Below, one piece after another: positions 1 through 24,233 of a DNA stretch of 30,862 nt. A program made the translations under genes and the position numbers. Source of the stretch: Deltaproteobacteria bacterium RIFOXYA12_FULL_61_11 (GTDB lineage: Bacteria > Bdellovibrionota_F > JAHFAK01 > YA12-FULL-61-11). The stretch spans positions 1 to 30,862 of the forward strand of contig MGSU01000263.1 of assembly GCA_001799195.1 (NCBI GenBank). Direction: 5' to 3'. The first letter of the stretch is position 1; each line of letters starts with the position of its first letter. The notes below the pieces were generated by a model, which did not search any database, was not told where the DNA came from, and worked only from the letters and a program-made list of their open reading frames with translations.

Positions 1-399
1 TGAGCGGATCGAGGTCCACTGCGGCGACGTGATTGGGCGCTCGGCCCAGCGGGTACAGAACCGCCGGGGCGAAACCGTCCTCGGCCACGTCGTACAGGAA
101 GACCCTGAGCTGATCGAGCTGCTTGTCGACAACCACGAGATCGTCGTACTCGTCGTCGTCGATCCTCGCGGCGACCACCCCGGCAGGATCATTACCCGCA
201 TCGAGGAGCTGCTCTTCTTCCCAAGCAAAGTGCCAATCGCCGAGGTTGCGATACAGATAGACCGAACCGTCGAGCTTGTTGACCACGGCAAGGTCGGCAC
301 GGGGTTGTTCCAGCCCCTCGTCGTGGAACAGGTCCGAGACCACGGCGTAGGCCGGCGCGAGATTCGTCGCACCGAGATTGTAGAGATTCGCGGCATCGG
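1..399 (-). repeat. FG-GAP/VCBS repeat array 4 (cut by window edge)
   Basis: The last residues readable at the left edge return to FG-GAP style: ADLAVVNKLDGSVYLYRN near 270-320, then DDDEYDDLVVVD near 130-165, then DLDPL at the very edge. The array is incomplete, so neither its length nor the protein's C-terminus can be seen. Confidence 0.65.
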
Positions 400-3300
400 T
401 ATACAGATAGCTGCGGCGGTACAACCCTCCCTCGGTCAGTGCGAACAGGCTACCGCCCGTGGCCTCGGCCTGGTGGAATCGGACCTTGCGCATGCGGTCG
501 TCCGGCAGGACCACCTCGCCTTCCCCCGGCATCGCCGGCCGGCGGGTGTCGAGGAAATCCAGGGCATCGGTCGTAGCCTCTCCGCGATAGGTCAGGTGAT
601 ACCCGTCATCATCGCCAAAGAGCCAGATCGCCTCACTGCCCTCCAACCCACTCACCGTGGTCACCTGCCGCTCGGTAGTACCGTTCACCACCACGACCGC
701 CCTCGGCAGACAGGCCTCGAGTTCCTCTTGGCCAACCGCGGGATAGCGTAGGACCGCGCTGTCGGACGCGATCAGGACGTCAAGGTTCCCGGCCTCGTTC
801 CGACGCACGTCGAGGTCGCGGAGAGTCCTTGTCCCGTCCACCTCGACGAGGAACCAGTGGGCTCCAGCATCAAGGGTGTAGAGCACATGGTGGCTGGTCA
901 GGGCGAAGAGGCTCTGGGCGTCGATCTGGGAGAGGGCCACGATGACCTCGTCCCCACCCGGAGCAACCGCATCGCAGCTCGCCTCGACGGCGGCGAGGTC
1001 GGTATCGAGGTCGAAACCCACGAAGCTCGCCCCCCCGTTCGAGGTCAAGGCCACGGCCCGGCTCGTCGCCAGCGAATAGGTTCCCGGCTGAGGGATCAGC
1101 CGCGGTGTGACCACCTCGAGGACGTTCCGACCGATACCGGGATCCGCGAGGAAGCTCTGGAAGCTCTGCCCCCCGTCGAGGGTCAACCCCAGTCCCTGGA
1201 CCGTACCGAAGAGGTACCTCGCTGTGGCCGAGTCGGAAGAGGTATCGGGCAGGAATGCGACCGAACCGATCCCCATGGGTAATGCCCAGTCCGGGGTGAG
1301 TAACGTCGTCTCTCCTCCGCTCTGCACGACGGCACCGATCGTCGAGCCGAGCAACAAACGCCTAGCCGCCCCGCTCCCGATCAGGTCGAGCGAGGTGAAA
1401 TCCAGATTGGGAATACCCGTCCCCTTGGTCAGAACCTGGTACGTGGCTCCATTGTCTTCGCTGAGCATCAGGCTGGCGGCTGTAACCAGGGCGAAGGTGG
1501 ACCGATCGTCCCCATCGACCGCCACGGCCACGACTTCGTTGCCCTCCTGGTTCTCCGCCAGAGCCTCGTTGCCCTGGAAGACCCGAGCGGCAGTCGTGAG
1601 CGTATCGAACCTACTGACAACCACCAGTCCATGTTCCGTCCCGATCAGCAGCTCTTCGGCCTGGGGATCGTTCGAGGCAAGGAAACGCAGGGAACGAACC
1701 CCCGGGCTCGGTAGGGAGGGATCGGTCGAGGTGGACAACGTGCGGCTCCCCAAGACCCCGGTGGATCGATCGAGGGCATAGACCCCGGCCTCGTCGGCCA
1801 CGGCGAGCACGGCTCGATCGGTCCTCGCCAGAGCGAGCGCGTGGACGACATCGGTCGAGGAATCGGTCAGACCGTACAAGGTGAAGGAGGAAGCATCGCC
1901 GCTGGGATCCGAGACCAGCAAGCCTGCGCCGATCAGGGGCAATCCGTCCACACCGCAAATGGGATCGGGGACATCCAACGTCGGGACGACCACGCACGAG
2001 TCCAGACCATAGCCACAGGCGAAATCATTGGTCGCGAGCATGTCACAGGCGGTAATCACCGGGACATCGAGGTTGGAATACCCCCCGAGGGAGAAACTCC
2101 GGAGGGTGTTGCGCACGACGTCGAGCGGTTCTCCAGTAACCGGATCCTTGGCGTACATGGTGCTGCGCAGGACACCGGCCCCAGTGCCTACCAGGGCTTC
2201 ACTGAAGGTCGTGACGAAATCGTACACATCGAAGGTCAGCGGAGTCTCGCCGGCCTCGAGTTGCATATCTACGAAGCGATAGTTCGACCCGCTCAGGAAG
2301 ATGTCGAAGTCGTCAAGGTGATAGATTTTCGTGCCCACCTGGACCAATACCTCGTCGATAAGTTGCTGATTGGCCAGCAACCGCACCGCCCGAACATCGT
2401 TGCTGGGAAGATCGGCATTGGAGGTATCGACCTTCTTGAAGGAACGCCCTTGGTTATTTGTAAAATACAAGGCCTTATCGGTTCGAACGACGAACTCCTT
2501 GAAGGCAGTGTTGACGTCGTTCCCGGTAGCGCGTTTCCAGATTGCGTCCAAGTCCCGGAACGCCGCGCCATCCGAGGTGGCGTCCTCGAGTCCCAAGGTC
2601 TCCGTGGTCGCCACCAGGTAGTGGTGGGTGCCCGGTCCATCCTCCTTGGGCTCGAAGGCGTGCAGGCAGGTGCCGCTCTCGGTCAAAGCGAGATAGTTGA
2701 GGTCATAAGCGGTCTCGACCTTGGCAAAATCCTGGAGGGGATCGTCGGTGACCGTGAGCACGGTGTTGCTCGGTAGGTCCGAGGTCGTGTCGTCGATGTG
2801 CACGAACGAGGTACCGCCGTCGATACTGACGTAGAGACCGGCATCGGTGCCGACCATGAAGGACTTGCAAAGCACCGCGTCGGTGTTGACCCAGGAGAGA
2901 TCGCTGACCGCGACCCCGGGCGCGACGGGATACCTGCCATAGGTCGTCCAATTGTCCCGGGTGATGTATACCCCGGTCTTGCTGGTGCCGAGGAGTTGGA
3001 ACATGCGGGCCTCGACCTGTTTGCCCTGGAAGGCGCAGGAGGTATTGCGCAGGCGGAAGTCGAAGGCCGTGATCGCATCGCCGGGCGGAGCCCCGAGGGG
3101 TTGCAACTCGCCGAGCGAGACCGTGGTGAAGGTTCTCCCTCCGTCATTGGTCACCGAGAAGACATCGGCCTGACCGGAACCCGCGCTGTCCTGGAGGACT
3201 GCAAAGGTCTTGCGTTTGGGATCGCCCTGGAAGAAGCGCACGTCTACGACGCGATGGACCGGGAGATTGAAGGCCGTGAACGTGGCGCCGCCGTCTTCCG

Positions 3301-6300
3301 AACGGGTCAGACCCAGCTCTGTCCCGAGCAGGAAGGTCCTACCGGTGGGATCGTCCTCGGCGAGGGCGACGGTAACGATCTTGTTCGACGGTACCAGATG
3401 GGTCGAGGCTTGCAGGTAGTTGACCTCTCCGATCTCGCCCGCGATACTCGTGCCGTGGATGGCCCCTCGCCGCGTGCCGAGCAACCATACCACCTGCTCA
3501 CCCACCATCTTGCAGTGTGCGCTAGTGATCCAGCGGGCTTCGGGATAGATCTCGGCCGAGTACTCGAGCGGGAGGAGGGTAGCCCCTCCATTCCAGGACA
3601 GGTAGGCGCCATCGGCCGTCCCGAGCAAAAAGACGAGTTGCTCGAGCTGCGTGGCCGGATGGTTGCAGAAAGCGACCGAACTGACCCGGTCGTCGAAATC
3701 GAACTCGGCGGCCAAGGCCCGAGAATTGAAATACCGCTGCTCGACCGCGGTTAGGGCTTGCGTGCCGCCCTCGTCGAGATAGGTCTCGGAGAACAGGACG
3801 GCGCCGAAATTGGCCGTCCCGACCAGGTGATGGTACACGGTCTCGTCCCCTTCGACCACCTTGTGGAAATCGACGGAGGTGAGATCGGAGGAGGTCAACT
3901 GGGAGGCATTGACGAACCCGGCGCTCCCCTTGGTCGCGTCGCGATTGATGACCAAACCTTGGGTGCCACCGACCAGATATTGTTTCCCCTCTCCATCCGG
4001 ATCGTCGACAAAGGCCACCAAGTTGATCACTCCGACCCCGGCGTTGGCATGCACGGTCACCGTCGGCGCCGTGAAACAATCCTCGACGTAGTGGATCTCG
4101 GTCAGCGTCGCGGCCACGAGGAGCTCTGTCCCCTCGGACCAATAATCCACCGAGACCACGTCAACCCCACCGAGGATGGTGGTAGCCGTTGCGCCGGCAT
4201 CTTGGCTGAGCCAGACCCCCGCACTGGTCGCCACGATCAGGATGTCCGCCCCAACGAGCAAGACCTTGCGCACGGTCCTCGACGGTAACGGAGTGCCGCT
4301 GTCGGTTTCCACCGGGTGGAAGGTCACGCCGCCGTCTTCGGTCAGGTAGGCCCCATCCGAGGTACCGATCAGGAAACGCAAGGGCTGCCCGGCAACCGTC
4401 GGAACCGCATGGGACACCGAGGTCACCGTGAGGGCCGGGAGATTGAAGAACTCCCGCAAATGGCGCTGCCCCTGATAGACCATGGCTCCGCTATCTGTGC
4501 CCAACAGGAAGGTCTGACCACCGGGGTTGGTCTGGTCGAAGGCCACCGCATTGATCGTGTCGGAAGGCAACAACGCCTCCGCTTCGTCAGCGGTGGCATC
4601 CAACGCCATGAAATGTCTATAAGTAACTCCATCGTCTGCCGTAAAGAAGGCTCCATCCCCGTCCGATCCGAGCAGCAGGGTGGCTCCATAGAGATCTCCG
4701 GCCGCGTAATCGAAATCGGTCAGCTCCGCGCCTTCGGCGAGCGGAATGGGTACTACCCTGGCTCGGCCGCCCTGGAAGAGGACGAAACTGTTACTGAGAC
4801 CGCCGAGCCCGACCAAGTCGTCGTCACCATCCCCGTCGAGGTCTCCCACGACGAGCTGTTCGAGGCCGACCGGCGAGGGGAAGACGACCCGGCGCCGGAA
4901 GGTGCTATCCATGGTTCCGCTCATCTCATTGACCAGGACGCTCACGTTCTGATTGTCATGATCGAGATACAAGAGGTCCGGGTACGCGCGATCCGCGCTG
5001 GGATCGGGCAGCTTCGACCCGAACTTCCCGACCACCGGCGAACTCGGGGTTGAACCGACCCCTGTCAGCACAGAGGGCTGGAAGACCCGCGGAGCGGTCT
5101 GTTCATAGAGAGACAAGGTATAGTCACAGACGAAATCATCCCCCACTTCGGTGCAGGTCGGATCGCTGTTGCTGACCACGACGTCGGTACGGCCGTCGCC
5201 CGTGAAATCTGTCGCGACCAGACCGTTCGGGGTGGCTCCGGTGACCAGATAGCCCGACGAGGAAAAGACCTCACCGCGACGGTCGCCGATATGGCATCCC
5301 TTGCCGGTAGCAGCATCCAGGACCACGAGGTCGGCTTGCAGGAACCCGATGGAGGCCACCGCTCCGAGCTCGGTCAGGGGATTGAGGGTTATCGGAGCAC
5401 CCGCGGTCAATGCTCCGTTATCGTTGAGGAGAGCCACGGACAGCTCGCGACGCGAGGCACTGGCGGTGACCAGCCCGAGACGGCCGCCATCGAGCACCCG
5501 GTAGGCGGTCAACCCGGACGACTGTCCGGCCACACCGATCGCTTGGCCGGCTTGCAGGTCATAATTCCCAGCAGGTCCAGGGCCGAGAGCGGGCACCACG
5601 GTCGGCACCACCATGAGCCGGTCCCGGGAAGGCATCTCTCCCTCGGTCAGGAGGACCAGTTCGGGAAGACCGCCGCCCTGCAATTCGATCACGGCCAGCT
5701 CGCGCGGCCGCTGCTCCAGTTGCAACTCGCTGCCTTCGGTGTAGGCCAGCCCGTTTTCGACGATGTCGTACAAGCGGACGTTCTCGGCCAGGCGATTGAG
5801 CACTGCCACGGCGCCGTTGGGCAGGACCTCGGGAACCGGAGGTATCCAGGCCGCATCCACCGGGCCATGCCCGGTCGGGAGCACGACATCGGCGGTGACA
5901 TCGAAGGTTCCCGCGCCGTCGTTGAGGTAGAGTTCGAGTTTGTCCCGGCCGTAGTTGACCAGGAGGAGATCCGAGGTCTGCACGGTTAAGGGGTTCCCCA
6001 GCGGGGCACATACGATGGCGCGGGGAACCTGGTCGCTGCGGAAATCGCCCTGGTAGGGCAAGGCCGCGACCACGGCAGCACCGGTGAGCAGGTCGGCTCC
6101 ACCGCTCTCCACGGTGAAGACGACCGCGGCGCGAGGAGCGCCTTCTTCGAGCGGATCTTCGAGCCCCACAACTGCGAGATCGGTCAGCGCATCTCCGTCG
6201 AGATCCCCTCCGCAGAGTTGCAACCCTTGGTACGCCCGGTCATCCGGATCGAGGAGCGGGTACTCGGTGACGAACTCGAGCCGCGGGTCCGTGTCGTCGG

Positions 6301-9300
6301 TCTCGAGGACCCGGGCCAAGAGCAGAGAGTGCCGGAGGTGATCGGCGACGACCAATTCCGCTCTGCCGTCCCCGTCGAGGTCGAGCTCGAGAGAGGCCGC
6401 CGGCCGCTCACCGGAGTCGAAGCTCCGGGCCGGAATATTGCGGTGCAGGATCAGCTTCTGTTCGCTCTGGTCGACCACCGCGAGGTCGGCCTTGTGCCCT
6501 AAGGTCGAGGTATTGACCACCGTGGCGGCCATGCCTGCCGGCTTGCTCCCGCCCTGGAGGATCACGGGGTCCGAGGTATCGAGCTGGCCGGAGCGATCCA
6601 CCGGACGGATGGTCAAAGTGTCGTCGAGTTGGTCGATGAGGGCGAGGTCAGGCAGACCGTTGCCGTTGAAATCCGCGAAGAGCAGGTCTTTGGGGAAGCG
6701 CCCGGTCTCGAGGGTGATAGCCACGGCCAGGGGATAAACCCCGGCCAGATCGTCGAAGGTCGATCGGCTCGGGTATACGACGACCGTGTCATCGGCCGAG
6801 TTGGAGACCGCGAGATCACCGACGTAGCGGCCGTCGAAGTTGGCCACCGCAACATCGACCGCGTTGACCCCGGTGGGCAGGTCGATCCCCGTCGGCGCCA
6901 GTTGCCCGGGGAGAATTTCGAAGATTCTCAGGGTATTGCTCTCGGACAACAGCACCGCGAGCATGTCTAGGATACCGTCACCGTCCTGGTCATGTCCCAC
7001 CAGGTCGTAAGGCTTGCTGTCCAGGGCCACGATCGCCCCAGGCAGAAACAATCCGGTGCCGTTGATGTTGGAGAAGGTCTGGAGCGCGCTGCCGTTCTTG
7101 GCCGCGATGACGATATCGGAGTCGTTGAAGGCCAGGGAGCCGTCCTGTTGGCGATCTTCACCCAATTCGCCGCACACCAGGGCCTTGGGTCCCAGCGGGA
7201 TGGGATAGAGGCGGGGCGTCCCCTGGAATACACCGGGGGTGACACTGGAGTTGAGTACGACCCCGAGTTCGTTCGTTTCATCGGTGACGTAGGCGAGGTC
7301 GGTGACCCCGTCATTGTTGAAGTCGGCCAGGCAACTCGCGGTGATCAGGTGGGCCGCGGGATAGAGCGTCCGGAGGAGATACGGAGTCTGGGGACTCTGG
7401 TTCATGAACCCCGCGAACTCTTTGACATCCCTGGCGAGCACCAGGAGATCGGCCCGTCCATCGGCATTGAGATCCCCCGCATGCACGGCAGCGGGAAGGA
7501 AGCCGAGCTCCAGGGTCGGGACGACCTGGTAGGACACCGAGTTGATGATGAGGGGGAATTCCAGCCAGGAACGCTTCCCAAGATTGGTTTCGACCACGAC
7601 GACACGGAGGTCAAAACGCTTGCCGCGATCGGCTTCGTCGGCCAGCAGATCGACCAGACAACGGTTCTGGTCTGTCGTGAAGGTGAGTCCCAAGGGATAG
7701 GTGCGCCCATCCTCGCGTTCGCACAGGACTACGTCCCCGTCGAGATCATAGAAATCGATGGCCCAGGTGCGACGTTCCCCGGGGAGCATGGTGAAATGCA
7801 CGCCGAGTTCCTGGTCGAGTTCTTCGGTGGCGAGCTCGTCGGTGAGGGACTGCCCCTCGAAGGTCTGGAAGATCGGTCGCTGGTTGTTCTCCAGAACGGT
7901 CACCGGAAGGACGAAGTTCGGGCTGACCAAACCGAGCGGATCAGTCACGCGCAGCCGCAGGTCGAAATGCCCGCCCTGGAAGAAATCCGGGGCAAAGGTC
8001 AGGTTGCCGTTCTGCGGGTCCAAGGTCGTATTGGCCGGCAGATTGACGCCGACGAAAGTCAGGAGGTCCCCGTTGGGATCGCTGGCTGAGAGGCTGCAAT
8101 TGAGGACTTGGTCGGGCCGGCTCTCGGTAATGGTGTACACCCCCTCGACCGGGGCCACGTTGCAACGCACTCCGGTGATCAGCGGCGCCTTGTTGGCCCG
8201 GGTCAAATAGACCTGGTGCCGCCTGCAGGACGAATCGCCATACAGGTCGACGACCTTGTAGTAGAAATTGAACTTACTCCGCACGTTGGCCAGGGTCGGC
8301 GCGAAGGTGGTGACCCGCTCGACGCGGTCGTGCAGCATCTCGGTGGTGCCCGGGTACTCGCACGGGAAAAGATACTGCAAGGCAGGCGAGGTGCAATCGA
8401 GTTCCTCGCTGGACTCCACGCAATACAGGTCCGGCAGGGCGGGTTGATCCTCGTCCGAGCTGAGCACCTTCATGCGATACTGCTCGCCGATGTTCACCGT
8501 GGCAGCCGAACCGTCGTGATCATTGGGGTCGAGCTCGGGGAGTATGGTGAGAGCAGGAAGAGTATTACGGTAGTTGACGCGGAAGGTGAGCGCTGCTTCC
8601 GCGCCGTGTACGTCTTGGACGGTCACTCGAACGTCATTCGATTGCTTGATCCGAGCGGCATCGAAACCGAAACCCAGTTCGAAATAGGCATCCCCGAGAT
8701 AGACTTGGGTACCCGGACGATCGGCGCAGGGGAGCCCGCTCTCGACCACGGTGCAACTCAGACGGCCCAGCTCCAGGAGAGGGGTCTCGGGATCGACATA
8801 GCGGAAGCGCAGCCGCAGGAGGTCTTGGGGGTAGAAGTCCAGGGCGAAGGCAATACCATCGATCCCTGAGGCGTACTGATCCTGACCGGTCAGGATATCC
8901 GCGAAGAGTTGGGGAACCTGGTTACGGACCGTCACGGTGAAGGTCGAGACCGCCGGCACGGGATTATCTGCATCGCTGGTCTCGATGGAGAACTGGTAGG
9001 TATTGCCGATGTGCGCCACGGTCGGCAGGTATTCGAAACCGAACGAGCGCAGCGTCGTGGGTTGGGGTCCGGAGAAGACGTCCGGTTCGAACTCGAACTG
9101 CGGCGCGTCGCCGCAGGGCTCCGCATCCCCGCCATTGGTCGCCACCGTGCAACCAAAGATGATCGGGTCGTTGTCGTCGTCGACGAAGGTCAGATCAAAG
9201 GCCACGCGTTGACCCATGGTCGTCTGCACCACTCCGACGAAGGGGTTCTGCCAATAGGGCAGTTCCTGTTTCTCGATGCTCCAGGTGAGCGGCACGGTGG

Positions 9301-12300
9301 CTATCCGACCGCTCGTGTCGACGGCATAGAAATTGAGCGGATACACCTGTTCTTCGCCGGCGAGGAAAATACGACGATACTCTAAGTACTCGAACAGGAA
9401 CGTAGCCTCGTGCGCGTTCGAGCTACCGTCACAGACCGGCGTGAAATAGTCTTCGAGGCCCTCGACTCCGCAGGTCACCAAGGGCAGTTCGCTGGCAATG
9501 GCGACGTCGACGAGCAACGCGGTGCGGTTGCCGATCGTGAGGTGCTCACCGGCGGTGACGGCCATACCATCGTTGACGAGGGAAATTGTGATCGGTCCCG
9601 GGGGTAGAGCATCATCAAGGACCAAGGTGAGGATCACCTGAGTGCAGTCGTTCTCCTCGGATACTTCACAGGCATCGGCGGTAAGATCGTAACTCCCGGC
9701 GTTGACCGGCAATACGGTGGTATCCAGGTGCAGCACGGAGGTGACCGGGTTGAAGCTGACCACACCGACGAGAGCCGTTGGAATCTCGACCGCCAGCTCG
9801 GTCTCATTGCAGTAGTCCGGATCATAGGCCACGAGCGGCACATCCCGGGGGGCTTCCCCGAGATAGACCCGGCCAGCGAGCACGTTGCCGATGACCGGAC
9901 CCTCGAACTCGCGGGTCACGGCCAGTAGGTAGCGTCGCTCGTCGCGGATCGCGACCCCTGCCTCGATGAGTTGGAAGCGGAACTCGAAGTTGTGGACCGG
10001 GTCGCACTCGCGATAGATGGTATTGGAGAGATCGAACGTGAAGCCGAGCTTGGCCTTGTCGAACAAGGCATACGCCGGGAGTTGCTCTTGCCAAGGAGCC
10101 TGGGGATCGGGCCGGTAGGAGGCGACCACGTCGAAGCCCTCCCCGAGAGTCCCCCCCTTGAGCAAGAACTTGAGGCTCACGAGGTCGTCGTCTTGCAGGG
10201 CTATCACTTCTCCCTCTGTCGTGGCCTCGTGGCTGTTGAAGATGAGGTTGAGGCTGAGTGGCCCCGCGATGACCCCTTCCTCGACCGCAGGGGTGGCCAC
10301 CTCGAGATTGTACAGGATGGAGATGTTGTCGGTGTTCTCGTTGAGTACGATGAGGTCGCGATCGTACTTGGTGGTCGCCGGATCGTCGGTGATGGTGCCG
10401 TCGCCGTCGATGTCGCGGACCTCGATATCAATGGGGTTGTTCCCTGCGAGCAGATTCAGGAAGGGGATGAAACGCCCGTCGCCGGCCTGGTTCAAGAAGA
10501 TCGAAACGCTGTCGTCGTCGCGGTTCAAGGCCAGGATGTCCGGACCATTCTTGACCGCATCCGTGGTGTTGGTGGGATCGATGTCGATCAGGGTGAAGGC
10601 CCCCGGATACCGTCCCGTTGGAATGAGGTTCGGGTCCTGGAAGCTCCCCTTGCTCCCTCCGGAACCGTTCTTGAACACCGAGAGGGTGTTGTCGTTGGAA
10701 TTGCTCACCACGAGGTCGATCAGGTCATCGACCTCGGGATTGAGGTTGGCACCGCGGATGGCGACCGGGAAACTGCCGGTGGCCAGGACGCGAGGCGTCG
10801 TCGAGAAGCCGTTGGGATAGAGGTTCTCGTAGATCAATGCTTGATTGAGGTTGGCGCTGAGGAGGACCACGTCGCGATGGACAGTGCCGATAACGTCGCC
10901 GACGAAGAAATCCACCGGATAGGCCGTGGCCGGAGCGCTGATCTGGACCTGATCTGCTTCCGCTGCGGAAAAAGTGCCCTGCCGGTTGAGCAGCACGGTC
11001 ACTTTGTTGCTGTCTTCGTACAGCACCGCGAGATCATCCCAACCGTCCTGGTTGTAGTCCCAGGCCTGGAGCTTGGTCGGCGATAGGCCGATGATCTGGG
11101 GCGTGGGCACCTCGAGATCCGGGAGGTTGGCCACCACCCTCTCTCGTACGACGTCCTCTAAGGGTTCCTCGATCACTTGGATCACGTCGGTGGTACCGAG
11201 GTCGATTTTAAGGAAGAGGTTGTACAGGACGGTGACATAGTTGAGGGCCGTGCTGACCAAGACCACGTCATTGGTCCCGGTATGGTCGAAGTTCCCCACC
11301 ACGAGGTCGTTGATACCCTGTTGGCAAGCGACACTGCGCACCGTGTTGTTGACCAGTTGCGGACAGCGATAGTCGAGCAGGAAGCGTTCGAAGGTGCTGT
11401 CGCCGTTGTTCATGAGCAGGGTCAGATAGGGCTGTTCCTCACCACTGCCGCCATTGCCTATCAAGATATCCCAGTCGTTCTCCCCATCGGTGGGATCCAT
11501 GTCGACCACGTCCATGCATAAGGGATGCGGCCCGGCGAGGTAATTCGCGGCAGCGGGGAAGACCCCTCCACCCTTGTTCTCGAGCAGAATGACCTGGTTG
11601 CCATTGGCATCGACGACGGCGAGGTCGTTCTTGTGGATGCCGAGCTCGGTCTTCCGGTCGAAGTTCACCCCCACCACATCGGCAGGGTTCCGCCCTCCGA
11701 CCAACTGTATCTGCCGTCTGCGATTGTAGGTCCCATCCCCGTTGTTGAGCAGGATGGAAATATTGCCACCGAGCTGGTTGGTCACCGCGATCTCGGGCCG
11801 ACGATCGGCCTTGAAGGCCTGGAAAGTCACCCCTGCGTCGTGGGTCAGGAACCCTCCTCTCGTGGTCGCCAGGAAGAAATTCTCGCCTCCTCCCTGGGGA
11901 TCGAAGGCGACGTCGTTGATAACGTGGTTCGCGGGGGTGAGTCCCGCGGCGGTGAGGACCTTCTTCGTAAACGTCACGCCATTGTCCGTGGACAGGAGGT
12001 AACCGGCCTGGGGTACGGTCTGCCCGGTCGGGATCTGTAAGGTCGCGACAAGGATACGGTTCTCGGCCGGGGTCGGACCCGGTAGGACGTCGAGGGCGAG
12101 CACATTCTCGTTGCGCACCGGGACGGTGAAGGCGAGCCCACCGTTGGTGGTGCGGGCGAGTCCCTTGAAGGTCCCTACCCAGAAGGTCTTGCCCGTGGCA
12201 TCGCTCGGGTCGAAGGCCACCGTGTGGATCTCGTTGTCGGGCAGGGTGTTGTTGACCGTGGCCAGGATCTCGGTGAAGGGACCTGGGAAATCGGGGGCGA

Positions 12301-15300
12301 GATACACACCGAGCTTGGTGCCCACGAGGAGCTGTGTCCGTGCTTCGGCAGTGCCGGCATCGACCTCGAGAAAGTCGAGAGAGGTGAGGACATTGCTCTT
12401 GAACACCGAGCCGTCCCCCTCATCCTTCAAGAGTTCGAACGTGAGGCCACCGTCGTTCGAGGTCAGCAGGCCTTCTTCGGTCGCCAGGACGAGGCGCTCG
12501 CCTGCCCCGAGGAAGACGAGGTCGTTGACCGCCGAGGTCAGGCGCTCGGGCAGGGTCTCGGGGTCATCATCGTGGTCGTATTCCAGGACCACGTTTTTGA
12601 TCAGCCGGGCATTGCTGCGCTCTTGGATCATGCACAGGCCATTGACCGTGGCCACGCCGAGGGTGGTTCCGATGTCCTCTTGGACATGCCCTATCGCGTT
12701 GACCTTGCTGCCAAGGGCCGAACAGTACTGCGGATTCTCGCGCAGGAAAGAGACCCCACCGTCGAGGGTGGCGCTGTAGCCGTAAATCGTGCCCAGGGCA
12801 AAGCGTTCTCCTGCTCCGGGCAGGTACTTCACCGCGGTCAGGTGATCGTCCTGGAACCAGAAAGGATCTCCATCGAGATCGACCAGGGCCAGGGCCGTGG
12901 GGAAGTTCCCCACCGTATAGGTCTCCTTGCGGTCACCGTACAGAAAGCTGCCGTCCCCGGCGGGTTCGGCGAGGAAGACGCTGACGGTGTCATTACCGGC
13001 ATTGCTGATCACGAGGTCGGGAAGTCCATCGAGGTCGAGGTCGTCGATAGCCACGTCGCGCGGGACATCTCCGGTGGGAAGTCCCGGTTCGAGGAGCTCG
13101 AGCAGGACATGATCACCCTCGGCAGCCCGGATGGAGGGTATGCCGGTCTCAGGCCTACTGGCCCGCCGCAGGGAAACCACGGTACTGGTATCGTTCTTGG
13201 TATTGGCCGTGGCCAGGAGATCGACCCGACCGTCGGCATCGATATCAAAAAGACTCAGCGCCCGAGCTTCCTGCCCGAGCGAGAACTGTCCGGCGTATTC
13301 GGTGAAGTGCCCTTGACCATCTCCGAGGTAGAAGAGCAAGTCCTCCCCGCCGTCCTGCGTCGCGAGCACGTCGGGATGATCGTCGGCGTTGATCAGGCCG
13401 CAGGCGATGGCGAAGACCCGAGTGGAGTTCTCGATCGGCAAGGCCACGTCCAGCTCGGCCCCGGCAAGGTTCTCGAAGAAATACAATTTCCCCCTGCTGG
13501 CCACCAGAATATCATCGAACGAGCCCTCCTCGCGTTGGACGAAGGGAGCCGCGCACAACCCGGACACACTGCCGAGATCTCGGCTGCCGGGGAGTTCGTA
13601 TTCGACCACCGGGGCATATTTCGCCGGTTCGGGCACGATGTTCAGGAGCACGCCGATGGTATTGGCATCCGTGCTCCCGACCACCAGATCGGGCTCGCCG
13701 TCGGTGTCGATCGTGGCGCTGACGAGCTTGGAGACCCCCGCACCGACCGGGAAGCGGGGGAAGGAGAGGAAGGTCAGGTTGTTGACGTAGACAACCATGC
13801 GGAACACGGAGCAATGTTCACCTTCCTGGGTCGGCGTGTCGACATCACAGGCATAGACGTTGACGGCGAACTCGCTCCCGGCATCCCCTTCTCCGGGCAG
13901 GAAGACCAACTCTCCCTTGGTCGGATCAGGGAAAGAAGGCAGGCTCTGGCGGAGCCGGTTGAGCGCATCGTTGGCCGGGATGGCATACCGGACGACATCT
14001 CCATCGAGATCCTCGGCGACCAAGGTCAAGCGCTGGAGCGCATCGTCGTCGACTTCGAATCGGTCGATGTCCGCGTTGCCTTCCATGGCGACCGTGGTGA
14101 AATCATCGGTCACCGGCGTGGCTCCGATGGCACGGAAGACTGGCCGACGGTTCACGTCCTGGACCTCGATCGCGGCCAGGAGCAGATTGCTCTCGAAACC
14201 GGATTGGTCCTGGACCACGAAGGTCGGCTGGTAATACTCCTGCTCGGTCCTGGTCTGTTGGACGTACGTCGGGGTGAAGGTATAGACCCCGTCGTTGGTG
14301 ATCTTCCCGCCGCTGGGGCTATCCACGACCTTGTACGTGAAGACCTGGTCCGGGCCGTTGGGATCGCTGGCTTCGAACCGGACGGTGAGCGTGTGGTTCT
14401 CGGCGACGACGAGGTGGGACAGGGGCTGCTCGACTCTTTGACCGTCGACCTTGACCTCGACCATCGCGAGCACCGGGGGTTTGTTCTCGTTGGTGACCCG
14501 GACCTCGAGGACGCGGCTCGAGGTCTTAGGGACGAAACCCGACACCGTCCCTTGAGCTCGATCGGTGGCCACGAGATGGAACCGGTACAGCCCGAGCTTG
14601 TGCACTCCATAGATGGGGAGGAAGCTCAACCGCCATGCGTTGCCCTTCTGGTCGGTCTTGGTGAGCAGCGAAGCGCCGAACAACTCGGCCGGATCTTCTA
14701 TTTCCTGTTCGACTTCCTGCCCCCCGGGCAAGAGCTCGCTGTGCACGACCCGCTCGACCGCGAGGTCGATAAGGTCCCCATCCACGTCGAGCAACTCGAG
14801 GTTGACCAGCAGGGGAGGGTCGTCGCCGTAATTCACGGTGAAGGCACTGGTGATCGGCGCCGTGAACTTGGGTGGACCGTTGCTGTCGCTGATCCGCACC
14901 GAGAAGGTCAAGTACTGGGCAATACCGGGATGATCGCTCACCGCCAAACGGAAGAAAACCTCCTTCGTCCGCTGCTCGCGAGTGACCAGGGAATAAGGAG
15001 GGGCGAAGGTGAAACGCCTCTCGACCTGACTGTAGCTCGCTCCCAGTGTGGCAACATTGTCTTTCCATTGTTCTGCTTCGGCGAAACGATAGGCCATCGA
15101 GGAGGTCAGGTTGCCCTTGTCGAGCGGATCGAGGTCATCGAAATCGAAAGAAACCACCAGGGTCTGGTTCTCGATCGCGGTGAAGCGCCGATCGGCCTGG
15201 TACTGGGCCAACACATTTTCGCTCCCCCCGTCTTCCTCGGCCCGGCTCGCTCCGGTCAAGGACACGCTGGGCAAGGTGTTGGGCAGGATGGTCAACCCGA

Positions 15301-16684
15301 AGGAGGCGTTCACCTCCAGACCGCAGGCATCGGTGGCGACCAGACTGACTTGGTAGGTCACGTTGTCGTCGGTGTCCCCCGCGTGGAGTCGCAGGTTGAC
15401 ACCCTCATCCCCTACCCGCTCCAACCGATAGGAGGTTTTCTCGGTATCCTCGGCCGTGGCCAGGGCGGGCGTGGACTCGACGGAGAACTCGAGCTGTTCG
15501 GCAGCGCGTTCGAAATCCTGGTCGACGACCGAGAATTCCAGGCTGGTGTATTGCAAGTTAAAAATGGAGAAGTCGGCCGGAGCGGCGCCCTCGAAACTGG
15601 GTTTTGAGGACACGATGGCCACCGTGGTGGTCGTCGTGTTGCCCTCGTCGGCAGTCTCGGGGGTGAAGGCGTCCTTGGCTCTCACGGTCAGGGGAAACTC
15701 TCCGCAGGACCCCTTGGGCGGTGCGAGGGTGATGGTGCCCCGGCCGTCCTCGTCGTACTCGACCGTGGCCCCGGGGATGGACTCGAAGCCCAGCAGCTCG
15801 AACTCGACGGCATCGTTCTCGGTGTCCACTGCCTCGACCGGGAGCTTGACGACGCTGCCCACCTGCACCTCGGTCCTGGCGCCGAGTTTGAAGACCTGGG
15901 GGACCTTGTTCTCGGAATACACGTGCAAGACGAGGGTCAGCGGTTCAGAGGTGTCCTTCTCGTCGTACCCGAGGAGCACTACGGTATAGCGGCGATCTTC
16001 GTCCCCCGCGCCGGGAACGAAGATCAGCGTCGCCTTCCCGCCGTCAAGACCGCGCAATTCGACATTGGAGGTGTGCGGGGTCACGGAGCCCAGCTTGATC
16101 TTCCCCAGATCGTTCGGAGCGAGCTTCAGGGAGAGGTCGAGCTTGAAACGCTGGCCCATGCGCACCGTGTACTCTCCGTCCTCCTGTTCGAAGGCCAGTT
16201 TGCCACGATTGCGGTTGACGACCTTGAGGGTCACCGCATGGGTGATCGGTTCGAAGGCGGGTTCGCGGTCTTTCTCGGGATCGAGGACCGCAACGAGGGT
16301 GAAGACGATCTTATAGGTTCCGGCCGCGGTGTGATCGGCCTCGAGGTCCAACTTCGCTACCCCGTCTTCGACGGTGAAGACAGTGGTGAGACCCTCGATC
16401 CCGTTTCCATCGGTGCCGATGGGAAGGATCTGCGGAGGATCCATGGTCGCATCGAAGACCTCCGGCACCGTGAAGCGCGCTTCCAGGCTGACCGATCCGC
16501 CCTCGACGACCTCGAGGGTGCGTGGGTTCTCCTCGTCGAAGAAGGGCAACTCGGTCGGGGTTTGGTTCTTCTTCCCCCCGGAGCAGGCGAGGAGCAGGGC
16601 CAGAGGCAAGACCAACAACATCGCTGCCAGGGGTTTGGAAGGAGAACCCGGAGCCGGCGAGAACATCGCGATCGTGGTGGCCAT
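1..16684 (-). CDS. Giant multidomain surface lipoprotein (partial, C-terminus beyond window)
   Basis: One open frame runs from ATG at 16684 to the left edge: at least 5,561 codons, with no stop seen when I read it by eye. The N-terminus has a signal peptide with hydrophobic residues about 19-33 and a lipobox LLAC (Cys34) followed by SGGKK. Lipidation and outer-membrane anchoring are therefore predicted. Domains then run as Ig/cadherin-like (about residues 40-970), FG-GAP (970-1280), Asp-box (1290-1625), FG-GAP (1625-2130), Ig/cadherin-like (2130-3045), FG-GAP (3045-4000), Asp-box (4000-5430) and a further FG-GAP array cut by the edge. FG-GAP and Asp-box repeats both form beta-propellers; cadherin-like domains bind calcium and give stiff rods. 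No enzymatic motif was recognised. Adhesion or cell-surface recognition is inferred from architecture only. The start codon has only a weak GAG-type ribosome site; ATG at 16666 is an alternative. The gene is divergent from the RND operon. Confidence 0.9.
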   Translation of the reverse strand, partial: MATTIAMFSPAPGSPSKPLAAMLLVLPLALLLACSGGKKNQTPTELPFFDEENPRTLEVVEGGSVSLEARFTVPEVFDATMDPPQILPIGTDGNGIEGLTTVFTVEDGVAKLDLEADHTAAGTYKIVFTLVAVLDPEKDREPAFEPITHAVTLKVVNRNRGKLAFEQEDGEYTVRMGQRFKLDLSLKLAPNDLGKIKLGSVTPHTSNVELRGLDGGKATLIFVPGAGDEDRRYTVVLLGYDEKDTSEPLTLVLHVYSENKVPQVFKLGARTEVQVGSVVKLPVEAVDTENDAVEFELLGFESIPGATVEYDEDGRGTITLAPPKGSCGEFPLTVRAKDAFTPETADEGNTTTTTVAIVSSKPSFEGAAPADFSIFNLQYTSLEFSVVDQDFERAAEQLEFSVESTPALATAEDTEKTSYRLERVGDEGVNLRLHAGDTDDNVTYQVSLVATDACGLEVNASFGLTILPNTLPSVSLTGASRAEEDGGSENVLAQYQADRRFTAIENQTLVVSFDFDDLDPLDKGNLTSSMAYRFAEAEQWKDNVATLGASYSQVERRFTFAPPYSLVTREQRTKEVFFRLAVSDHPGIAQYLTFSVRISDSNGPPKFTAPITSAFTVNYGDDPPLLVNLELLDVDGDLIDLAVERVVHSELLPGGQEVEQEIEDPAELFGASLLTKTDQKGNAWRLSFLPIYGVHKLGLYRFHLVATDRAQGTVSGFVPKTSSRVLEVRVTNENKPPVLAMVEVKVDGQRVEQPLSHLVVAENHTLTVRFEASDPNGPDQVFTYKVVDSPSGGKITNDGVYTFTPTYVQQTRTEQEYYQPTFVVQDQSGFESNLLLAAIEVQDVNRRPVFRAIGATPVTDDFTTVAMEGNADIDRFEVDDDALQRLTLVAEDLDGDVVRYAIPANDALNRLRQSLPSFPDPTKGELVFLPGEGDAGSEFAVNVYACDVDTPTQEGEHCSVFRMVVYVNNLTFLSFPRFPVGAGVSKLVSATIDTDGEPDLVVGSTDANTIGVLLNIVPEPAKYAPVVEYELPGSRDLGSVSGLCAAPFVQREEGSFDDILVASRGKLYFFENLAGAELDVALPIENSTRVFAIACGLINADDHPDVLATQDGGEDLLFYLGDGQGHFTEYAGQFSLGQEARALSLFDIDADGRVDLLATANTKNDTSTVVSLRRASRPETGIPSIRAAEGDHVLLELLEPGLPTGDVPRDVAIDDLDLDGLPDLVISNAGNDTVSVFLAEPAGDGSFLYGDRKETYTVGNFPTALALVDLDGDPFWFQDDHLTAVKYLPGAGERFALGTIYGYSATLDGGVSFLRENPQYCSALGSKVNAIGHVQEDIGTTLGVATVNGLCMIQERSNARLIKNVVLEYDHDDDPETLPERLTSAVNDLVFLGAGERLVLATEEGLLTSNDGGLTFELLKDEGDGSVFKSNVLTSLDFLEVDAGTAEARTQLLVGTKLGVYLAPDFPGPFTEILATVNNTLPDNEIHTVAFDPSDATGKTFWVGTFKGLARTTNGGLAFTVPVRNENVLALDVLPGPTPAENRILVATLQIPTGQTVPQAGYLLSTDNGVTFTKKVLTAAGLTPANHVINDVAFDPQGGGENFFLATTRGGFLTHDAGVTFQAFKADRRPEIAVTNQLGGNISILLNNGDGTYNRRRQIQLVGGRNPADVVGVNFDRKTELGIHKNDLAVVDANGNQVILLENKGGGVFPAAANYLAGPHPLCMDVVDMDPTDGENDWDILIGNGGSGEEQPYLTLLMNNGDSTFERFLLDYRCPQLVNNTVRSVACQQGINDLVVGNFDHTGTNDVVLVSTALNYVTVLYNLFLKIDLGTTDVIQVIEEPLEDVVRERVVANLPDLEVPTPQIIGLSPTKLQAWDYNQDGWDDLAVLYEDSNKVTVLLNRQGTFSAAEADQVQISAPATAYPVDFFVGDVIGTVHRDVVLLSANLNQALIYENLYPNGFSTTPRVLATGSFPVAIRGANLNPEVDDLIDLVVSNSNDNTLSVFKNGSGGSKGSFQDPNLIPTGRYPGAFTLIDIDPTNTTDAVKNGPDILALNRDDDSVSIFLNQAGDGRFIPFLNLLAGNNPIDIEVRDIDGDGTITDDPATTKYDRDLIVLNENTDNISILYNLEVATPAVEEGVIAGPLSLNLIFNSHEATTEGEVIALQDDDLVSLKFLLKGGTLGEGFDVVASYRPDPQAPWQEQLPAYALFDKAKLGFTFDLSNTIYRECDPVHNFEFRFQLIEAGVAIRDERRYLLAVTREFEGPVIGNVLAGRVYLGEAPRDVPLVAYDPDYCNETELAVEIPTALVGVVSFNPVTSVLHLDTTVLPVNAGSYDLTADACEVSEENDCTQVILTLVLDDALPPGPITISLVNDGMAVTAGEHLTIGNRTALLVDVAIASELPLVTCGVEGLEDYFTPVCDGSSNAHEATFLFEYLEYRRIFLAGEEQVYPLNFYAVDTSGRIATVPLTWSIEKQELPYWQNPFVGVVQTTMGQRVAFDLTFVDDDNDPIIFGCTVATNGGDAEPCGDAPQFEFEPDVFSGPQPTTLRSFGFEYLPTVAHIGNTYQFSIETSDADNPVPAVSTFTVTVRNQVPQLFADILTGQDQYASGIDGIAFALDFYPQDLLRLRFRYVDPETPLLELGRLSCTVVESGLPCADRPGTQVYLGDAYFELGFGFDAARIKQSNDVRVTVQDVHGAEAALTFRVNYRNTLPALTILPELDPNDHDGSAATVNIGEQYRMKVLSSDEDQPALPDLYCVESSEELDCTSPALQYLFPCEYPGTTEMLHDRVERVTTFAPTLANVRSKFNFYYKVVDLYGDSSCRRHQVYLTRANKAPLITGVRCNVAPVEGVYTITESRPDQVLNCSLSASDPNGDLLTFVGVNLPANTTLDPQNGNLTFAPDFFQGGHFDLRLRVTDPLGLVSPNFVLPVTVLENNQRPIFQTFEGQSLTDELATEELDQELGVHFTMLPGERRTWAIDFYDLDGDVVLCEREDGRTYPLGLTFTTDQNRCLVDLLADEADRGKRFDLRVVVVETNLGKRSWLEFPLIINSVSYQVVPTLELGFLPAAVHAGDLNADGRADLLVLARDVKEFAGFMNQSPQTPYLLRTLYPAAHLITASCLADFNNDGVTDLAYVTDETNELGVVLNSSVTPGVFQGTPRLYPIPLGPKALVCGELGEDRQQDGSLAFNDSDIVIAAKNGSALQTFSNINGTGLFLPGAIVALDSKPYDLVGHDQDGDGILDMLAVLLSESNTLRIFEILPGQLAPTGIDLPTGVNAVDVAVANFDGRYVGDLAVSNSADDTVVVYPSRSTFDDLAGVYPLAVAITLETGRFPKDLLFADFNGNGLPDLALIDQLDDTLTIRPVDRSGQLDTSDPVILQGGSKPAGMAATVVNTSTLGHKADLAVVDQSEQKLILHRNIPARSFDSGERPAASLELDLDGDGRAELVVADHLRHSLLLARVLETDDTDPRLEFVTEYPLLDPDDRAYQGLQLCGGDLDGDALTDLAVVGLEDPLEEGAPRAAVVFTVESGGADLLTGAAVVAALPYQGDFRSDQVPRAIVCAPLGNPLTVQTSDLLLVNYGRDKLELYLNDGAGTFDVTADVVLPTGHGPVDAAWIPPVPEVLPNGAVAVLNRLAENVRLYDIVENGLAYTEGSELQLEQRPRELAVIELQGGGLPELVLLTEGEMPSRDRLMVVPTVVPALGPGPAGNYDLQAGQAIGVAGQSSGLTAYRVLDGGRLGLVTASASRRELSVALLNDNGALTAGAPITLNPLTELGAVASIGFLQADLVVLDAATGKGCHIGDRRGEVFSSSGYLVTGATPNGLVATDFTGDGRTDVVVSNSDPTCTEVGDDFVCDYTLSLYEQTAPRVFQPSVLTGVGSTPSSPVVGKFGSKLPDPSADRAYPDLLYLDHDNQNVSVLVNEMSGTMDSTFRRRVVFPSPVGLEQLVVGDLDGDGDDDLVGLGGLSNSFVLFQGGRARVVPIPLAEGAELTDFDYAAGDLYGATLLLGSDGDGAFFTADDGVTYRHFMALDATADEAEALLPSDTINAVAFDQTNPGGQTFLLGTDSGAMVYQGQRHLREFFNLPALTVTSVSHAVPTVAGQPLRFLIGTSDGAYLTEDGGVTFHPVETDSGTPLPSRTVRKVLLVGADILIVATSAGVWLSQDAGATATTILGGVDVVSVDYWSEGTELLVAATLTEIHYVEDCFTAPTVTVHANAGVGVINLVAFVDDPDGEGKQYLVGGTQGLVINRDATKGSAGFVNASQLTSSDLTSVDFHKVVEGDETVYHHLVGTANFGAVLFSETYLDEGGTQALTAVEQRYFNSRALAAEFDFDDRVSSVAFCNHPATQLEQLVFLLGTADGAYLSWNGGATLLPLEYSAEIYPEARWITSAHCKMVGEQVVWLLGTRRGAIHGTSIAGEIGEVNYLQASTHLVPSNKIVTVALAEDDPTGRTFLLGTELGLTRSEDGGATFTAFNLPVHRVVDVRFFQGDPKRKTFAVLQDSAGSGQADVFSVTNDGGRTFTTVSLGELQPLGAPPGDAITAFDFRLRNTSCAFQGKQVEARMFQLLGTSKTGVYITRDNWTTYGRYPVAPGVAVSDLSWVNTDAVLCKSFMVGTDAGLYVSIDGGTSFVHIDDTTSDLPSNTVLTVTDDPLQDFAKVETAYDLNYLALTESGTCLHAFEPKEDGPGTHHYLVATTETLGLEDATSDGAAFRDLDAIWKRATGNDVNTAFKEFVVRTDKALYFTNNQGRSFKKVDTSNADLPSNDVRAVRLLANQQLIDEVLVQVGTKIYHLDDFDIFLSGSNYRFVDMQLEAGETPLTFDVYDFVTTFSEALVGTGAGVLRSTMYAKDPVTGEPLDVVRNTLRSFSLGGYSNLDVPVITACDMLATNDFACGYGLDSCVVVPTLDVPDPICGVDGLPLIGAGLLVSDPSGDASSFTLYGLTDSSTDVVHALALARTDRAVLAVADEAGVYALDRSTGVLGSRTLSTSTDPSLPSPGVRSLRFLASNDPQAEELLIGTEHGLVVVSRFDTLTTAARVFQGNEALAENQEGNEVVAVAVDGDDRSTFALVTAASLMLSEDNGATYQVLTKGTGIPNLDFTSLDLIGSGAARRLLLGSTIGAVVQSGGETTLLTPDWALPMGIGSVAFLPDTSSDSATARYLFGTVQGLGLTLDGGQSFQSFLADPGIGRNVLEVVTPRLIPQPGTYSLATSRAVALTSNGGASFVGFDLDTDLAAVEASCDAVAPGGDEVIVALSQIDAQSLFALTSHHVLYTLDAGAHWFLVEVDGTRTLRDLDVRRNEAGNLDVLIASDSAVLRYPAVGQEELEACLPRAVVVVNGTTERQVTTVSGLEGSEAIWLFGDDDGYHLTYRGEATTDALDFLDTRRPAMPGEGEVVLPDDRMRKVRFHQAEATGGSLFALTEGGLYRRSYLYTDAANLYNLGATNLAPAYAVVSDLFHDEGLEQPRADLAVVNKLDGSVYLYRNLGDWHFAWEEEQLLDAGNDPAGVVAARIDDDEYDDLVVVDKQLDQLRVFLYDVAEDGFAPAVLYPLGRAPNHVAAVDLDPL
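400..4689 (-). repeat. Asp-box (BNR/Ycf48-like) repeat array 2 of giant lipoprotein
   Basis: Across about 1,430 residues there are at least twelve Asp-box motifs. These include TADDGVTY near 4615-4645, TEDGGVTF near 4320-4350, SQDAGATA near 4185-4215, SWNGGATL near 3575-3600, SEDGGATF near 3280-3305, TNDGGRTF near 3130-3160, SIDGGTSF near 2800-2830, TNNQGRSF near 2435-2460, SEDNGATY near 1440-1470, TLDGGQSF near 1155-1185, TSNGGASF near 1025-1050 and TLDAGAHW near 855-885. Preceding strands read LLGTDSG or VGTDAGLYV. The part below about 800 is less regular and its limit is approximate. Confidence 0.75.
4690..7545 (-). repeat. FG-GAP/VCBS repeat array 3 of giant lipoprotein
   Basis: This is the longest FG-GAP array in the window, about 950 residues. 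Motifs include DLNADGRADLLV near 7440-7480, DFNNDGVTDLAYV near 7288-7325, DQDGDGILDMLAV near 6960-7000, DFNGNGLPDLALI near 6635-6680, DLDGDGRAELVVA near 6350-6390, DLDGDALTDLAVV near 6175-6215, DFTGDGRTDVVVS near 5175-5215 and DLDGDGDDDLVGL near 4810-4850. At seven blades per propeller this is enough for about two propellers. Confidence 0.8.
7546..10289 (-). other. Ig/cadherin-like domain block 2, cysteine-paired
   Basis: This block of about 915 residues again has cadherin-like repeats (SASDPNGDLLTF near 8070-8095, DPQNGNLTFAPDF near 7990-8020). Unlike block 1, it carries repeated short C-x(8 to 25)-C segments close to the Asp-rich motifs. They are near 9640-9675, 9430-9475, 9110-9150, 8720-8760, 8395-8435, 8095-8165 and 7660-7720. 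In an exported protein these are probable disulphide loops. The block sits between FG-GAP array 2 and FG-GAP array 3 and may act as a rod between two propeller heads. Confidence 0.6.
10290..11814 (-). repeat. FG-GAP/VCBS repeat array 2 of giant lipoprotein
   Basis: Repeats of the form D-LVV-x-N-x-x-N-x-VxVLLN-x-GDG-x-F are read here, including LLNNGDGTY near 11730-11760, DYNQDGWDDLAVL near 11030-11060 and DIDGDGTITDDP near 10390-10425. The array starts directly after the last Asp-box motif of array 1, so the two propeller types abut without an obvious linker domain. Confidence 0.75.
11815..12849 (-). repeat. Asp-box (BNR/Ycf48-like) repeat array 1 of giant lipoprotein
   Basis: Five Asp-box motifs ([ST]-x-[DN]-x-G-x-[ST]-[FYW] or close variants) occur: TLDGGVSF near 12750-12775, SNDGGLTF near 12435-12465, TTNGGLAF near 12125-12150, STDNGVTF near 11965-11995 and THDAGVTF near 11815-11850. 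They are separated by the hydrophobic strands VLATEEGL, VGTFKGL and LATTRGGFL, as in sialidase, sortilin and Ycf48-type propellers. No sialidase catalytic residues were recognised. Confidence 0.75.
12850..13770 (-). repeat. FG-GAP/VCBS repeat array 1 of giant lipoprotein
   Basis: Several calcium-loop motifs of the FG-GAP/VCBS type D-x-D-x-D-G-x-x-D-L are present, for example DTDGEPDLVVGS near 13675-13710, DIDADGRVDLLAT near 13200-13245 and DLDLDGLPDLVIS near 13010-13050. Each is followed by a strand of the type VxVLLN or VSVFLA. The spacing of roughly 60 residues matches blades of an integrin-alpha-like propeller. Confidence 0.8.
13771..16585 (-). other. Ig/cadherin-like domain block 1 of giant lipoprotein
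   Basis: This block of about 940 residues follows the lipidated cysteine. It repeats a pattern typical of tandem Ig-like/cadherin-like domains: a hydrophobic strand, an Asp-rich segment of the type D-x-D/E-N-D or SDPNGPD, an x-PG- or G-containing turn, and a strand of the type GxxTFTP. Examples lie near 15800-15830 (DTENDAVEF), 14340-14375 (SDPNGPDQVFTYKV) and 14000-14010 (DLDGDVVRYAI). Such domains usually bind calcium between repeats and act as spacers. The individual repeat boundaries were not resolved. Confidence 0.65.
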
Positions 16685-16727: not shown

Positions 16728-16755
16728 AGTATACATAGGAACGCGTGAGATGCAA
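16728..16755 (-). promoter_or_regulatory. Candidate sigma-70-like promoter of the giant lipoprotein gene
   Basis: On the minus strand, TTGCAT (16750-16755) and TATACT (16728-16733; five of six to TATAAT) are separated by 16 bases. Transcription would start near 16721, about 37 bases upstream of the ATG at 16684. The -35 match is weak at three of six, so this is a candidate only. Confidence 0.4.
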
Positions 16756-16789
16756 CCACTATCCGACAGGCAGGCGAAGGCGAAAAGGC

Positions 16790-16818
16790 TTGTCCTCGGC
16801 CGTATTGACGCCTATCAT
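16790..16818 (+). promoter_or_regulatory. Candidate sigma-70-like promoter of the RND efflux operon
   Basis: TTGTCC (16790-16795; four of six to TTGACA) and TATCAT (16813-16818; five of six) are 17 bases apart. A start near 16825 would give a short leader of about 22 bases before the ATG at 16847. It points away from the giant gene's candidate promoter, and the two -35 boxes lie only about 35 bases apart. Confidence 0.45.
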
Positions 16819-16846
16819 CCCCGCACGGCCAAGACACCGCACCCAG

Positions 16847-18316: not shown

Positions 18317-18326
18317 GAGTTCCCCG

Positions 18327-22837: not shown

Positions 22838-22866
22838 TTGCCTTTCCTCGACCGGCTCTCTACAAT
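22838..22866 (+). promoter_or_regulatory. Candidate sigma-70-like promoter of the zinc-ribbon protein gene
   Basis: TTGCCT (22838-22843; four of six) and TACAAT (22861-22866; five of six) are 17 bases apart, in the 133-base gap after the RND operon. Transcription would begin near 22873, about 34 bases before the ATG at 22907. This also argues against a TTG start at 22838. Confidence 0.5.
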
Positions 22867-22906
22867 GGTTGCTTCTTCGCGCTCCCCGGACTCGGACGGA
22901 GGCTCC

Positions 22907-24106: not shown

Positions 24107-24167
24107 CCCCCCTACTTCCTGCTCGTACCGCCTCTACCATTGTCAGAGGAAGAGGAACGCAGAGAAC

Positions 24168-24197
24168 TTTACTTCTCTCGAAGTCCTGGACTATGAT
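24168..24197 (+). promoter_or_regulatory. Candidate promoter of the GNAT acetyltransferase gene
   Basis: TTTACT (24168-24173; four of six) and TATGAT (24192-24197; five of six) are 18 bases apart in the 127-base gap between the two genes. The start would be near 24204, about 30 bases before ATG 24234. Read-through from the upstream gene is equally possible. Confidence 0.35.
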
Positions 24198-24233
24198 GCC
24201 GTCCAGTACAGAGCCTTCACCACGAGGACCATC

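Follow-up and report, generated by a model that had tools for sequence, protein, structure and literature searches.

A predicted giant bacterial lipoprotein with Asp-box propellers inserted into integrin-type FG-GAP propellers

Introduction

Proteins with one or several propellers are familiar from bacteria, and giant surface proteins are a recognized class. The core of the VCBS superfamily is made up of prokaryotic proteins with a signal sequence; these may contain several propellers, and their companion domains are mostly Ig-like (PMC8023676). Integrin-type propellers are known in bacteria, sometimes in tandem (PMC3192720). Asp-box propellers occur widely in bacteria, together with domains for adhesion and carbohydrate binding (PMC2716378). 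In Omnitrophota, giant open reading frames have been associated with a predatory or symbiotic way of life (PMC10066038). UniProtKB holds more than 41,000 proteins longer than 5,000 amino acids; in bacteria, NRPS/PKS are the commonest of these, followed by surface attachment proteins (PMC11573180). The original prediction for the locus studied here, made from the DNA letters, had described such lengths as rare in bacteria and as usually marking adhesins, predation or biofilm proteins; the catalog corrects this view, surface proteins coming second to NRPS/PKS (PMC11573180).

The giant lipoprotein reported here shares features with each of these groups. Like the multi-propeller proteins of the VCBS core supercluster with VCBS/FG-GAP (PF13517) repeats (PMC8023676), it combines a signal sequence, several seven-blade FG-GAP propellers and Ig-like domains, but differs from them in having Asp-box propellers within FG-GAP propellers, a duplicated block and great length. 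Its FG-GAP blades are of the type found in the propeller of integrin alpha subunits, with DxDxDG calcium loops, and as in integrins, which can carry an inserted A/I domain, one propeller contains an inserted domain. Unlike in integrin alpha, the insert is a whole propeller within blade 6, the protein is a prokaryotic lipoprotein and no beta-subunit partner was identified. The [ST]xDGGxTF motifs and the blade profile resemble those of the Asp-box propellers of GH74 and sortilin/Vps10 (PMC2716378), whereas no catalytic domain was recognized and the Asp-box propellers sit inside other propellers of a giant lipoprotein. Very long, poorly conserved and putatively adhesive, the protein also recalls the Omnitrophota giants (PMC10066038), many of which possess multiple transmembrane helices in place of the lipoprotein signal alone seen here. 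A 3,907 amino acid frame in an unrelated genome of another phylum (G053, L105:1-11721) is likewise giant, with FG-GAP blades grouped 7, 7, 7 and 6+, but has no Asp-box blades and instead carries Laminin_G_3, Big_5 and beta-helix domains. The general kind of giant surface protein is thus already known, and it is the nested propeller layout that is apparently new.

Results and discussion

The giant gene is one real, unbroken gene that continues past the end of the contig. The window, meaning the whole stretch of DNA analyzed (30,862 bases), is the entire contig C263 (G000:C263). On its minus strand, a frame starting at an ATG at 16684 runs to base 2 (giant gene, 2..16684) through 5,561 codons without a single stop, an outcome with a chance of about 10^-68 for independent bases of the same composition. 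The GC content at codon positions 1, 2 and 3 is 0.66, 0.42 and 0.79 and is similar across all ten 556-codon slices; the two other same-strand frames contain 135 and 93 stops. The open frame and this uniform coding signal agree with the original prediction of a single minus-strand frame spanning the left half of the window and leaving it at the edge. A protein of at least about 600 kDa had been anticipated, and the visible part has a mass of 596.9 kDa and a pI of 4.3, both computed from 5,561 residues. Residues are numbered from M1 at 16684, with residue r beginning at 16684-3(r-1). The ORF caller extends the gene further upstream, to a TTG at 16876; the start at 16684 is supported by a GAGAG located 6 bases upstream of the ATG and by the lipoprotein signal that directly follows it.

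It is extremely improbable that the frame is an assembly artefact in which several genes have been fused. The source is a metagenome-style bin of 342 contigs with 87% completeness, where such joins could occur, but the gene forms one frame with even codon-position GC. Within it, no direct DNA repeats longer than 34 nt were found and no tandem repeats were reported, making a collapse or a repeat-driven join unlikely. In addition, its domain order occurs twice in sequence that has diverged to about 22-30% identity. Neither of the two findings named beforehand as speaking against a single gene, an in-frame stop or a join of several genes, appears in the present assembly. The first 38 bases of the window occur once in the assembly and, because the window is the full contig and its left end is unique, the stop codon is out of reach. 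Two contigs with an open first frame were picked as candidate continuations: C292 encodes FG-GAP repeats of another subtype together with UnbV_ASPIC, and C172, which may be the continuation, encodes a CARDB array with a terminal FG-GAP region. The evidence joins neither to the giant gene. An antisense open frame of 1,127 amino acids (window 12224-15607, plus strand) lies inside the giant gene and is probably only a shadow that the coding strand casts at this GC content.

The giant protein carries an N-terminal signal characteristic of lipoproteins. It begins with MATTIAMFSPAPGSPSKPLAAMLLVLPLALLLAC, comprising a hydrophobic stretch that ends in a lipobox at Cys34 (LLLA followed by C34, read by eye), and the signal, MATTIAMFSPAPGSPSKPLAAMLLVLPLALLLA followed by C34, occupies 16583..16684 on the minus strand. 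This is the sole strong hydrophobic segment of the visible protein, with three other spots barely passing the threshold. As read from the sequence, the protein is exported as a predicted lipoprotein with an N-terminal lipid anchor at Cys34. The lipid would attach it to the outer membrane, with display most likely on the outside of the cell. The original assignment to surface-type proteins is borne out as regards export, through the LLLAC34 signal, and as regards adhesin-type domain content. The protein falls outside the RTX/type I-secreted giant adhesins of the LapA and SiiE type, which lack an N-terminal Sec signal, in that it has an N-terminal lipoprotein signal, which is the only decisive criterion in this comparison since RTX repeats and a T1SS signal would be C-terminal, beyond the contig; no RTX GGxGxDx motif is present in the 5,561 visible residues.

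Lipoproteins may also be retained in the inner membrane or, in the outer membrane, on the leaflet facing the periplasm. Accordingly, the protein could be a periplasmic or inner-leaflet scaffold that is never surface-exposed, consistent with the presence of a lipoprotein signal alone, with no surface-export signal and no dedicated secretion gene nearby. We consider this unlikely, as an extended protein of 600 kDa would be hard to accommodate in the periplasm and its domain types are those typically described for extracellular proteins (PMC11573180, PMC8023676). Display of the giant lipoprotein on the outer surface is the location we infer.

The visible protein is built from FG-GAP and Asp-box blades that alternate with Ig-like arrays. 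The domain search on slices of about 500 residues that had been proposed for this protein was run on ten slices, and Pfam FG-GAP_3 (PF13517) reached or passed its curated cut-off of 26.9 bits in six of them (exceeded in slices 3, 4, 6, 7 and 10, equalled in slice 8; best E 6e-18). The best Pfam scores for Asp-box families were all below cut-off (BNR 24 bits vs 27, Sortilin-Vps10 25.8 vs 33, PSII_BNR 19.8 vs 27). A relaxed Asp-box motif, S-x-D-x-G-x-T-W/F, has 12 matches, all of which lie within the two Asp-box regions. Profiles built from blades of the window retrieved matching structures from the PDB, namely integrin alpha-IIb (5e-6), integrin alpha-5, CRTAC1 and a secreted esterase for FG-GAP, and GH74 xyloglucanases and a two-component sensor for Asp-box (down to 4.5e-7); PDB searches with single sequences in place of profiles returned nothing significant. 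These results identify the domains as FG-GAP and Asp-box. The propeller folds are assigned from sequence alone, AlphaFold having returned a pLDDT of 33 both for residues 965-1835 (with internal copies) and for the Asp-box propeller by itself, and the folded shape and calcium binding of the protein are accordingly predictions. The original view that no named family covers the architecture holds only for how the domains are ordered and nested, as the domains themselves belong to named families (FG-GAP_3, BNR).

The domains are arranged in two blocks, each consisting of an Ig-like array, FG-GAP blades, Asp-box blades and further FG-GAP blades. This layout follows from a self-comparison revealing a large, diverged duplication, in which residues 802-1273 match 2896-3342 (E 1e-10) and residues 1577-1731 match 5416-5560 (E 5e-8). 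The block duplication is thereby shown by computation. All features are on the minus strand. Block 1 opens with Ig/cadherin-like array 1 (residues 35-976, 13757..16582; Big_9 E 0.0027 and tand_rpt_95 E 0.0046, both below cut-off; boundaries by eye). FG-GAP propeller P1 follows with blades 1-5 (977-1259) and the first part of a split blade 6 (1260-1273), together at 12866..13756 (Pfam and blade HMMs). The sixth blade is interrupted by an Asp-box (BNR) propeller of seven blades (1284-1626, 11807..12835; Pfam, blade HMMs and PDB profile), after which come the second part of blade 6 (1627-1663) and blade 7 (1664-1718) at 11531..11806, located by blade HMMs and by matches to outside FG-GAP sequences that restart at about 1624-1628. 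Seven more FG-GAP blades form propeller P2 (1719-2135, 10280..11530; Pfam and blade HMMs).

Block 2 begins with Ig/cadherin-like array 2, which is Cys-rich (2136-3052, 7529..10279; Big_9 E 1.8e-4 and Cadherin_5 E 4.9e-4, both below cut-off; boundaries by eye). In the Pfam searches, Big_9 scored 19-22.8 bits against a cut-off of 23.6 and Cadherin_5 20.3 against 26.5, and blade HMMs found nothing significant in the Ig regions. The array is followed by FG-GAP propellers P3 (3053-3429) and P4 (3430-3816), with seven blades each, at 5237..7528, and by blades 1-3 of propeller P5 (3817-3984, 4733..5236), all recognized by Pfam and blade HMMs. Next is an Asp-box array of about 28 blades, possibly four times seven (3988-5439, 368..4723), which was segmented by eye; an HMM recovers 28 of 28 but was trained on them. 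P5 then resumes with two blades, 4 and 5, and the start of a third, blade 6 (5443-5561, 2..358; Pfam, self-comparison and blade HMMs), where the contig ends. The contig end thus falls inside a repeat array, as had been predicted.

Blade counts in this protein rest on segmentation by eye followed by training of HMMs on the segmented blades, leaving the cross-block and split-blade tests as the only independent ones. In the cross-block test, HMMs trained on one block find the blades of the other. P1 to P4 each comprise seven blades according to the manual segmentation, with HMM support. Totals in sevens were not imposed, but the blades were delimited by hand; least certain is the number of Asp-box blades in block 2, 28. 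Overlapping seven-blade windows were also aligned, but the alignment slipped out of register and was set aside.

Blade 6 of P1 is split by a seven-blade Asp-box insert. An FG-GAP model trained only on block 2 matches residues 1260-1273 at model positions 8-21 and residues 1625-1661 at model positions 19-55, indicating that the two pieces complete one blade. When rejoined, blade 6 reaches 28.3 and 29.0 bits under two models trained without it; in the control, in which its left half was joined to random stretches (n = 300), the maxima were 16.7 and 18.9 bits. FG-GAP similarity from outside genomes likewise restarts at residues ~1624-1628. The split blade with its insert is therefore shown by computation. 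The blade is interrupted in its calcium loop, immediately after DLDGD. For block 2, where blades 3 and 4 of P5 flank the insert, the case for nesting is weaker because P5 is incomplete.

This nesting is the sole unusual feature of the protein; the layout is apparently undescribed, the component domains being familiar. It may represent a new architecture for giant surface receptors, with complete Asp-box propellers sitting in a calcium loop or between blades of integrin-type propellers as a prokaryotic, propeller-in-propeller counterpart of the integrin A/I insert, amplified by block duplication; we regard this tentatively, as falling a little short of an even chance. The layout suggests that integrin-type propellers can take very large inserts and provides a testable structural prediction.

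The giant protein is most likely a surface-displayed adhesin or capture protein. At a probability of roughly 60%, we read it as an exported giant lipoprotein, anchored in the outer membrane and most likely displayed on the surface, that presents two propeller heads on Ig-like spacers for multivalent binding or adhesion. In such a protein, the two Ig-like arrays would act as spacers carrying two heads of FG-GAP (integrin/VCBS-type) seven-blade propellers, and calcium in the DxDxDG loops would stabilize the latter. Asp-box propellers would be inserted in one FG-GAP propeller per head, singly in head 1 and as a set of about four in head 2, and would widen the binding surface. The protein would have grown by duplication of the Ig/FG-GAP/Asp-box/FG-GAP block. 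Its most probable role would be multivalent binding to polysaccharide, matrix or other cells; the ligand and the adhesion role are suggested by domain content. This functional reading covers the 5,561 visible residues, the C-terminus, where an enzyme or toxin domain could sit, lying beyond the contig.

Retrieval of GH74 xyloglucanases by the Asp-box blade profile raises the alternative of a surface enzyme that degrades polysaccharides, with the Asp-box propellers as GH74-like glycosidases and the rest as a binding scaffold. Several slices also match NCBIfam glycosyl_F510_1955 (best E 2.8e-11), but these matches span about 50-70 residues and never score above 43 bits, where the cut-off is 175. 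Pfam detects no catalytic glycoside hydrolase domain in the visible 5,561 residues and the Asp-box is a structural element present also in non-enzymes (PMC2716378), leaving an enzymatic function unlikely. A protein for contact-dependent predation or competition, whose long stalk would deliver a C-terminal effector encoded beyond the contig end, would fit the missing C-terminus and the lifestyles associated with giant frames in Omnitrophota (PMC10066038). It is nevertheless highly unlikely, considering that the 5,561 residues read contain no toxin-delivery or RTX feature and that the neighboring genes are an efflux operon and housekeeping genes. For a poorly sampled phylum, the giant lipoprotein is a clear example of an exported protein of this size; taken alone, it is no proof of predation, of biofilm formation or of a novel type of system.

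Searches among other genomes returned generic FG-GAP similarity and no second nested case. The searches covered up to 527 genomes, some of which recur between sets. The N-terminal 1,114 residues had no orthologue in 145 relatives, matching only generic FG-GAP sequences, and residues 1173-2141 (969 amino acids) showed only generic FG-GAP similarity and no nested case in 386 relatives. Residues 1270-1718, searched against two other phyla (9 and 132 genomes), gave the same result. A second genome from the phylum of the giant gene contained no match to either the N-terminal 1,114 residues or residues 1173-2141, and a scan of close-relative contigs gave three distant matches at 25-35% identity, with no orthologue and no second nested example. 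In three inspected genomes with Asp-box matches, no FG-GAP was found in the same frame. Absence at such search sensitivity is weak evidence for rarity of the nested layout.

The neighborhood of the giant gene in the window contains nothing pointing to its function. A divergent RND efflux operon on the plus strand (16745..22773) encodes an outer-membrane lipoprotein (OEP), an HlyD/CusB adaptor and an AcrB pump, and a promoter-like site at 16790-16818 lies on the efflux side of the divergence. Further along are genes for an M20 peptidase, PhoH, a release factor and transketolase. A frame at 22838-24106 (plus strand) has a zinc ribbon near its start and a long Pro-rich/coiled region, and overlaps a GNAT acetyltransferase frame at 23916-24776. 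Beside the release factor gene, 28489-30546 (minus strand) encodes a predicted exported protein of 685 amino acids with repeated Ig-like units and a weak CARDB match.

Large repeat lipoproteins seem to be usual in this lineage. In the genome that contains the window, at least two further giant proteins, exported or putatively so, carry CARDB arrays. On C309 (L115:6454-14982), a giant lipoprotein frame of 2,843 amino acids has a lipobox-like LVLGC and CARDB and TIG domains, and on C172 (L052:1-8211), a frame of at least 2,737 amino acids, with its 5' end off the contig, carries CARDB-like repeats and a terminal FG-GAP region. Together with these, a 2,126 amino acid lipoprotein of the sister genome G001 (L104:1135-7512), with CARDB, FG-GAP and C-terminal UnbV_ASPIC, underlies this impression. 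Elsewhere in the assembly, frames near 1878-6736 of C303 (L051) resemble, by eye, DNA gyrase subunits of an AT-rich organism, with a residue composition rich in I, K and N; this contig is a possible contaminant of the bin. C276 (L049:9189-13406) and C281 (L050:3826-5943) encode Ig and FG-GAP proteins with nearly identical C-termini that are apparently paralogues.
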